Assembly: GCA_016935565.1 (NCBI GenBank)
Contig: JAFGQS010000118.1
Location: 1 to 53,174 of the forward strand
Source: Deltaproteobacteria bacterium
GTDB taxonomy: Bacteria > Desulfobacterota > Syntrophia > Syntrophales > UBA6807
Length of the DNA stretch: 53,174 nt
Direction: 5' to 3'
This document shows positions 10,490 through 43,607 of this stretch, in pieces. Every line of letters starts with the position of its first letter. The first letter of the stretch is position 1. The notes beneath the pieces are model-generated. The model worked only from the letters and a program-made list of their open reading frames with translations. It was not told where the DNA came from and made no database searches. The position numbers and the translations under genes are program-made.

Positions 10490-11320
10490 ATGAAAAACGT
10501 GAAGATTACTATACTTGGATCAGGGACGTGTGTACCTTCCTTAAAGCGAAGTTCTCCTTCGGTATTGGTGAGGCTAGGAAATGACACGATCCTGTTAGAT
10601 GTGGGTGCCGGAACAATTCGAAGGCTTCTCGAAGCAGGAGGATCCATTTATGATGTTTCACATGTGTTATTCAGCCATCTTCATCCGGACCATACCGGTG
10701 AGTTTGTGCCGTTTCTTTTTGCTACGAAATATCCCGAAACGTATCGTCGAAGAAATCCCTTTATTGTAGCGGGATGCCGTGGACTGAGTGATTTTTACGA
10801 TCGCCTTACGGTGGTCTACGGACAATGGATTCAGCTTGATCGAGGATTGTTAAACCTGGTCGAAGTCGATAACGCGAAGGAGGATCATGTACATTTTGAT
10901 TCGTTTGATATTAAGACCCTGCCGCTTGACCACATAGAGACCAGTATCGGTTTTCGTATTATCATGGCTGATGGAACATCTATTGTGTACACGGGAGATA
11001 CCGATTTTTGTGGGAATGCGATAACACTTGCTGATGACGCAGATATACTTATCTGTGAATCTGCCATGCCCGATGCATTAAAGGTTCCGGGACACCTTAC
11101 ACCTTCACTTGCGGGAAAAATTGCATCGGAAGCAAAGGTAAAACACCTTGTCCTGACACATTTTTATCCCGAATGCGACACCGTGGATGTAACAGCTCAG
11201 TGTCGGAAAACATATGACGGTCCACTCATCCTTGCCCAGGATCTCATGGAGATAGAAATCGAAGGAGCCGAAGTTAGAGTAAAGAAAACAGGAGCCAGGA
11301 GTCAGGAGTCAAAATCTTGA
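10490..11320 (+). CDS. MBL-fold metallo-hydrolase, ribonuclease Z-like
   Basis: SHLHPDHTGE metal-binding motif, TGDTDFC, LTHFYPE; C-terminal GARSQESKS encoded by repeat DNA. Confidence 0.85.
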   Translation: MKNVKITILGSGTCVPSLKRSSPSVLVRLGNDTILLDVGAGTIRRLLEAGGSIYDVSHVLFSHLHPDHTGEFVPFLFATKYPETYRRRNPFIVAGCRGLSDFYDRLTVVYGQWIQLDRGLLNLVEVDNAKEDHVHFDSFDIKTLPLDHIETSIGFRIIMADGTSIVYTGDTDFCGNAITLADDADILICESAMPDALKVPGHLTPSLAGKIASEAKVKHLVLTHFYPECDTVDVTAQCRKTYDGPLILAQDLMEIEIEGAEVRVKKTGARSQESKS

Positions 11321-11390
11321 AGTCAGGATGAGGAGATTGATGAACGTATTTTTTTCTGAATTCTGAATTCTGTCTCCTGACTTCTGACTG
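11288..11390. repeat. Degenerate 7-bp-periodic repeat array with inverted arms
   Basis: AGGAGCC AGGAGTC AGGAGTC ... TTCTGAA TTCTGAA TTCTGTC TCCTGAC TTCTGAC; GAAGTCAGGA (11319-11328) is the exact reverse complement of TCCTGACTTC (11375-11384). Confidence 0.75.
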
Positions 11391-28339: not shown

Positions 28340-28395
28340 CAAGGGGTCAAGTAACAGAAGTCAGGAGTCAGGAGTCAGGAGCCGGAAGGAGAAAT
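28340..28395. repeat. Heptameric GTCAGGA repeat array between murD and ftsW
   Basis: ...AGTCAGGAGTCAGGAGTCAGGAGCCGGAAGG; three consecutive GTCAGGA units plus degenerate flanks. Confidence 0.8.
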
Positions 28396-39368: not shown

Positions 39369-39851
39369 TTATGCTTCTTCAAAACGATTTGTTTTGAGGT
39401 TTTTTCTAACCCTGTCCGGCGTAAAGATGCGACCGTTCATGGCGATGTATGTGCCGTGGGGAAGGGTCTGTACGGCGGCAACTGCGGTGCCGATGTTAAA
39501 AACCGCGTCGGATGATTTAAAACCTGCCGGTTCGATTGCTCCCGTAAGGACAATTACTTTATCCGGTATCATCTGCAGCTTTTGAGAGGTCTGAATCATC
39601 GTATCCGTACCATGAGTAACAATAATGTGTTGATGCTTGTCCGATGATATTGTATCGAAAATTAATTGACGGTCAGCATCGGTCAGGTCGAGACTGTCTT
39701 TCTTTAGTATGGATTCGAATTCATATTCAAAGGCAACATTCATTTCATGAATGATGTTCTTGGTAATTGGATCACCCACCTGATAGTCGCTTTTTTTATC
39801 AAAATATACCTTGTCGATCGTTCCCCCCGTGGTGAAAAATTTGATCCTCAT
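39369..39851 (-). CDS. Single-domain asparaginase-like protein (N-terminal domain only)
   Basis: 160 aa; TTGGTIDK and VTHGTDTM asparaginase motifs, lacks the C-terminal domain. Confidence 0.8.
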   Translation of the reverse strand: MRIKFFTTGGTIDKVYFDKKSDYQVGDPITKNIIHEMNVAFEYEFESILKKDSLDLTDADRQLIFDTISSDKHQHIIVTHGTDTMIQTSQKLQMIPDKVIVLTGAIEPAGFKSSDAVFNIGTAVAAVQTLPHGTYIAMNGRIFTPDRVRKNLKTNRFEEA

Positions 39852-41004: not shown

Positions 41005-41207
41005 AGCCTATTCCTCACTTGTATGTGTCATGATCTTCTTGGTGTTGATTTGCTGCGTATAGGAGAGGAGAGAGTATTTATCATATTGAAAATTCTCAAT
41101 CTTCACGACAGCATAATAGAGCTTTTATTCACAACAACTGCGTTTTTTGCGCAGATTTTGGTGCCGGGGAAATGATAACGGTAAAAGGCTAAAGGCAAAT
41201 GGCTCAA

Positions 41208-41272
41208 GGCAGTATCGATTATCGGATTTGGGAAATCGGTAACCTGGTACCTGGAACTTGGTTCCTGTTGCC
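41208..41272. repeat. Dispersed intergenic repeat copy B (7-bp-periodic family)
   Basis: 56/65 ungapped match to 13740-13804; embedded in a 7-bp-periodic stretch from about 41180 to 41290 next to the stop codon of the PilZ gene. Confidence 0.85.
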
Positions 41273-42444: not shown

Positions 42445-43232
42445 TCACTTCGTATGATGCTGATGTTCGCCCTCATGGGCAGACACTTTGTCTCCGTATT
42501 CTGCCATCAATTTATTCTGTTTCGGATGTGGGCCGAGCCATGCTACTTTGCCGCTTTCGATATCGTAGATTGCACCGACGACTTTGAGATTTCCCCTTTT
42601 AATCCTTTTTACCGTAGTCGGACTTATTTTGAACAGGTCTTCAATAGCGTGCCAGACATTGAATATAACCGCTTCTTGAATCAGTGCATCGCCGTGTAAC
42701 TGAGGGTGTTTTTCTTTGGCTTTTATAACAGCAGGAATTATATTGTCAACCAAGGGCGGAATCTTACCATGTAATTTTTCTTCATGAACAACGGCCGTTA
42801 CAGCTCCGCAATGAGTATGGCCGAGTATTCCCAGAACAGGTGTTGCAAGGTGATCTACGCCATATTCGATAGAACCCGCTTCATCGATATCGACAACGTT
42901 GCCTGCCACGCGGATAACAAAAATGTCACCAATCCCTCTGTCAAAGAGAATTTCCACAGGAACCCTTGAATCGGAACAGGTTAAGACCGTAGCAAACGGA
43001 TGCTGTCCCTTTGAGGATGTCAGGTTCCTTCTTCTTTGATTTTGATTGGGATATTCGGATTTGTTGGCGACATAGCGATTATTTCCCTCAGTGAGGATCG
43101 TTATAGCCTCATCCGGAGAAAGCTCTGATCCTCTGATCCTATGATGTCTGAAATCTGAATGCTTTTCTGTGCTATAAATAAAATAGCATATACTGCGATG
43201 ATAACTGCAAAAAAAGCATACACCTTTTTCAT
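42445..43232 (-). pseudogene. Secreted beta-class carbonic anhydrase, interrupted by an 8-bp tandem duplication frameshift
   Basis: Frame 1 from ATG 43232 with AGGAGGT SD encodes MKKVYAFFAVIIAVYAILFIAQKSIQISDIIGSEDQ...; a second frame encodes ELSPDEAITILTEGNNRYVANKSEYP...GQHPFATVLTCSDSRVPVEILFDRGIGDIFVIRVAGNV...GHTHCGAV. The frames meet at a perfect 8-bp tandem repeat (43123-43140); deleting one copy gives one ORF of 259 aa. Confidence 0.9.
43123..43140. repeat. CTCTGATC x 2.25 tandem repeat causing the frameshift
   Basis: ctctgatc ctctgatc ct read directly. Confidence 0.95.
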
Positions 43233-43607
43233 GTACCGACCTCCTGTTTAGCGGCTTGTTATCTATTGATTATTCAAAAACCGACGGTAGGATGTAGCAT
43301 AAAATTGCAATCCAACTTTTACGAGCACTGTCCTGTCTATCCACAATGATTATTGTCAAACAGATTGCTACTGAACATATGATTACGGTGACGATGTATA
43401 CGTTGAGAAAGACATGTTGTCAAACCTTTTACGACCAGTACCGACGGATGCTTGGACAATGAGATGCACTGACCACATCCGTATAATAATTCAAAAATAT
43501 AATCAAAGACATAGCAGATTTTTACTTTCTTTTCCTTATGTTTAAGTATAAAATAAAGATCAGTTATTACGACGTTCCATATAAGCGGAACGAGAAAGCG
43601 AACCCAT

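Follow-up and report, generated by a model that had tools for sequence, protein, structure and literature searches.

On the minus strand of the window (the whole stretch analysed, 53,174 nt of contig JAFGQS010000118.1), a start codon and a hydrophobic leader are followed by a carbonic anhydrase that is read in a different frame. The question raised by this locus is whether an exact 8-bp tandem repeat between the two parts represents a recent loss-of-function mutation, a switch that cells can reverse, an error of the assembly, or a shift that is overcome during gene expression.

Leader, repeat and catalytic frame

The features of the gene, from 5′ to 3′ on the minus strand, are as follows.

43240..43245, minus strand: Shine-Dalgarno sequence AGGAGG, 7 nt 5′ of ATG 43232, from the sequence
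43101..43232, minus strand: leader ORF from ATG 43232 to TAA 43101, 43 aa, MKKVYAFFAVIIAVYAILFIAQKSIQISDIIGSEDQSFLRMRL*, by translation
43209..43215, minus strand: heptamer T TTT TTT within the leader, in the right phase for slipping by -1 into the mature frame, given low weight
43139..43145, minus strand: imperfect copy ATCATAG, 6/7 matches to ATCAGAG, from Tandem Repeats Finder
43123..43140, minus strand: exact 8-bp tandem duplication and frame break, two copies of CTCTGATC plus CT on the plus strand, two copies of GATCAGAG on the minus strand
42445..43122, minus strand: mature beta-carbonic anhydrase frame, 225 aa and a stop, with the CSDSR and GHTHCG motifs
42445..42957, minus strand: GTG-started fragment reported by the ORF caller, 170 aa, lacking CSDSR

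The first-pass annotation, which was made from the sequence alone, had described a good start with a Shine-Dalgarno sequence, an exact 8-bp tandem, a full mature carbonic anhydrase in another frame, and an ORF caller that sees a 170-aa fragment of it; all of these elements were recovered. Translation of the leader ORF gives the initiating ATG, a hydrophobic signal or anchor segment, and then an out-of-frame tail ending at the TAA. The tract with an exact period of 8 spans 18 nt, that is, two full copies of the unit and 2 nt, and was stretched to 43145 by Tandem Repeats Finder (2.9 copies, 93%). The heptamer ATCATAG at that end codes for a conserved I-I-G, the leaders of relatives having I-I-G or V-I-G, and, as an older imperfect copy, could be the seed of slippage. 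The mature part continues in the -1 frame relative to the leader, in an ORF open from stop to stop over 274 codons (43269..42445). No ATG, GTG or TTG occurs in this frame ahead of GTG 42957, beyond CSDSR, so that an independent start of the mature frame was ruled out. The 170-aa fragment starting at this GTG is probably inactive because the first zinc-ligand motif, CSDSR, is missing from it. The window allele contains no complete beta-carbonic anhydrase ORF that could be expressed, and the locus is better annotated as a frameshifted beta-carbonic anhydrase than as a 170-aa protein.

The mature frame generated a hit on Pro_CA (PF00484) in Pfam with 131.7 bits (cut-off 25.7), covering positions 1-156 of the 156-position profile. 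The zinc ligands and the Asp-Arg dyad (CxDxR ... HxxC) are present, CSDSR and GHTHCG lining up with those of relatives. The nearest solved chains were 2a5v and 1ym3 (E about 1e-30), which we take to be Mycobacterium-type enzymes. Judged from these matches, the gene product is a beta-class carbonic anhydrase. In the leader, VYAFFAVIIAVYAILFIA, no signal-peptidase site is apparent, and the segment may act either as a signal peptide or as an anchor that stays in the membrane uncleaved. The proposed secreted or periplasmic location is plausible, but membrane anchoring may apply instead. Export signals are known on some Gram-negative beta-carbonic anhydrases (PMC5746736). The window gene is like beta-carbonic anhydrases with an N-terminal export signal in its Pfam match, its CSDSR...GHTHCG motifs and a hydrophobic leader shared with its relatives, but the window allele differs from them in being frame-broken.

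No other beta-carbonic anhydrase and no alpha-carbonic anhydrase was found in the window's genome (G000); hexapeptide-repeat proteins, which may include gamma-carbonic anhydrases, occur there. As the beta-carbonic anhydrase is patchy in the order (found in 9 of the 60 relatives searched), its loss is apparently tolerated in this lineage. The Rfam search generated nothing credible close to the gene, and the sigma-70 scan detected no minus-strand site upstream of it. A TTGACA-17-TATACA arrangement at 43423-43395 was seen by eye only.

Orthologues and the age of the break

The repeat alone is weak evidence because similar tandems are expected by chance: under a Markov model, about 0.7 exact 8-bp tandems of at least 16 nt, and 0.07 of at least 18 nt, are expected in 53 kb. 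We therefore rely on the closest relatives, which belong to the same family and another genus, namely G003 (loci L003/L011, 74% identical) and G005 (L004/L012, 70%). In both, the leader and the mature part lie in one frame and the repeat is absent, and their leaders (MKKFYVFFAVIIGLYIIMFAAQKSVRTVDIIGS and MKKMYIFFAVIIGIYIIMFAAQESVRTVQVIGS) are homologous in frame to the window leader. DNA alignment with three sequences from these two relatives opened an 8-nt gap precisely where the repeat lies, and the 8-nt unit is the only indel at the leader/mature junction. The position of the repeat exactly at this alignment gap against two intact orthologues proves the frame break, and as the intact one-frame relatives lack the repeat, the additional 8 bp arose by insertion on the branch leading to the window. 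In a set of 46 homologous loci, an upstream start codon in the mature frame was missing from the window alone. The comparison of related genomes that the first-pass annotation had proposed thus bears out its prediction that a one-copy form joins the two frames; homologues with a different start and a separately translated mature frame, which it had named as contrary evidence, were not seen in the two closest relatives, whose genes show the joined frame. The combination of intact orthologues at the same locus and an indel private to the window is that expected of a recent-frameshift pseudogene. Internal stops had been flagged in the G003 and G005 genes; direct translation identified them as the genes' own terminal stops just past the matched part.

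The gene order ftsA-ftsZ, asparaginase-like, GGDEF, PilZ and carbonic anhydrase is common to the window and its relatives. The other syntenic window genes align over nearly their full length, which indicates that the break is specific to the carbonic anhydrase gene.

The rest of the mature frame was described from the outset as intact, and this holds. It has no internal stop in 225 codons, keeps its catalytic motifs, and retains 70 of the 71 residues that are invariant in seven other homologues. Against L011, dN was 0.18 and dS was saturated. In relative-rate comparisons with L005 as the outgroup, unique changes numbered 11 vs 10 with L011 and 13 vs 14 with L012, so the window gene is not accelerated. 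As about 25 new stops are expected per neutral substitution per site and none is present, neutral divergence since the break would be at most about 0.12 substitutions per site, with which a younger event is also compatible. The event appears to be recent because the downstream frame carries no stop, keeps the catalytic motifs and has not evolved faster. Stated in full, the preserved frame means one of three things: the break is recent, some cells continue to express the gene, or the genome does not truly carry the duplication.

Origin of the duplication

We consider a private and recent 8-bp duplication, that is, a sporadic null mutation and no evolved contingency switch, to be the best explanation, with a probability of roughly 0.7. 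The ancestral state would be a chromosomal gene for a beta-carbonic anhydrase that carries a signal for export or anchoring at its N-terminus. During replication, the growing strand would have slipped back 8 nt onto the older imperfect repeat ATCATAG-GATCAGAG, in which ATCATAG matches ATCAGAG at 6 of 7 positions at offset 8. Renewed copying would duplicate GATCAGAG and yield ATCATAG-GATCAGAG-GATCAGAG, exactly the observed sequence, so that a single event would suffice. Slippage at the older imperfect repeat probably made the insertion, judging from the sequence. Ribosomes starting at 43232 would then halt at 43101 after 43 residues, and with the catalytic part lacking a usable start, cells bearing the two-copy allele would make no active enzyme. 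The two parts would return to a single frame upon exact deletion of one copy, at low frequency, as for any short tandem duplication. The recent slipped-strand event suggested in the first-pass annotation is thus upheld by the joined orthologues, the 8-nt gap at the repeat and the undecayed mature frame. This is an ordinary, familiar kind of mutation in a new instance, and would provide a clean example of how an exported carbonic anhydrase can be lost in one step, seen here before any decay and in a lineage with a patchy distribution of the gene. Against the null mutation, it can be said that the duplication comes from a single assembled genome and may be a mistake of the assembly or a minority allele, and that an undecayed gene is equally compatible with expression in some cells or with recoding.

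The first of these objections amounts to a consensus error or minority variant in a genome that is truly one-copy and has a working gene. The assembly is a single fragmented one (196 contigs, contamination 3.39%), and the gene is without any decay, as an intact gene would be. However, the compared syntenic neighbours show no other frameshift, the slippage model yields the observed sequence exactly, and short-read assemblers seldom generate an exact 8-bp duplication. We regard this explanation as unlikely, though as the most serious competitor of the null mutation.

A reversible phase switch, as the first-pass annotation had also suggested, would require the 8-bp unit to be gained and lost often, giving ON and OFF cells of the exported carbonic anhydrase under selection. 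The exact tandem unit is not a multiple of three, lies between the export signal and the catalytic part, and is followed by an intact mature frame, which speaks for such a switch. Nevertheless, there is one extra unit only. Loci of the contingency type with simple sequence repeats, i.e., multi-copy tracts of tetra- to octamers, likewise carry within the coding sequence a unit that is not a multiple of three, whereas the window has two exact 8-bp copies, unconserved in orthologues, in a gene that is not surface-antigen-like. A CO2-hydrating enzyme is not a typical contingency gene. Neither a conserved nor a length-variable repeat tract occurs in the orthologues of the two closest relatives, so that a conserved switch in homologues was ruled out, and a search of the G000 assembly for a second allele found one allele only. 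Taken together, these observations speak against the switch, which we consider improbable.

The nearest precedent is in pneumococcus, where tandem duplications in capsule genes reportedly govern phase variation (Waite et al. 2001, 2003, as cited in PMC4022640). The expected reversion of insertions of up to 9 bp is given there as at most about 1e-5 (PMC4022640), which is a further argument against frequent switching at the window locus. The two cases are alike in that a short exact tandem duplication breaks the frame and precise loss of a copy could restore it; they differ in that reversion and high-frequency variation were reportedly measured in the capsule genes, while the window offers a sequence with a unit of 8 bp. 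The pneumococcal duplications are reportedly mostly longer than 8 bp. Literature searches on 8-bp bacterial duplications and on carbonic anhydrase in sulfate reducers found nothing closer. It is slightly less probable still that a natural population switches the export of its only beta-carbonic anhydrase by one 8-bp unit, as a metabolic rather than a surface contingency locus of an uncultured deltaproteobacterial lineage; if reads showed mixed alleles, the locus would be a rare metabolic example of this kind.

Least probable of all is recoding, in which a -1 slip or transcript slippage at T TTT TTT would enter the mature frame, open without a stop from 43269 through the leader, at a correctly phased heptamer missing from the two closest relatives, and give a cytoplasmic enzyme without its export signal; such a product would lose a hydrophobic leader that relatives conserve, the leader is conserved right up to the repeat, no stimulatory structure stands out downstream of the heptamer (z -1.0), and an open stretch of 49 codons arises by chance at about 10%.

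Surrounding genes and other repeats

Divergent from the carbonic anhydrase gene, the window encodes a DUF6982 protein (PF22478; 43608-44009, plus strand), which was not found at the corresponding place in G005. An asparaginase-like gene (39369-39851, minus strand) encodes a 160-aa protein in which only the N-terminal asparaginase domain (PF00710) was matched; as the g4 relatives align over its whole length, it probably belongs to a genuine family of short proteins instead of being truncated.

The family's two g3 genomes (G002 and G004) carry the GGDEF protein nearest to that of the window (67-68%), with no detectable carbonic anhydrase, PilZ or lipoprotein neighbours (L078 at the start of G002:C55 and L077 at the end of G004:C26). 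Because both contigs end just past the GGDEF gene, carbonic anhydrase loss in g3 is not assignable to this locus, and the absent neighbours reflect either block loss or an assembly gap.

The Magnetococcales homologue L017 carries an exact 8-bp tandem, two copies of GGCTTTGG, in its leader, some 72 nt upstream of the point where the mature match begins. It is the one homologue with such a leader tandem, its ORF is open despite the repeat, and the tandem is probably due to chance.

Exact 7-bp tandem repeats are in excess across the window (11 seen vs 3.4 expected), with sites at 11289-11311, 11354-11389, 28355-28381 and 41184-41267, and the arrays are mostly intergenic. Two distant sites carry CAGGAGT and a third carries a related array of TTCTGAC type, and the 7-bp arrays possibly constitute a dispersed heptamer family.
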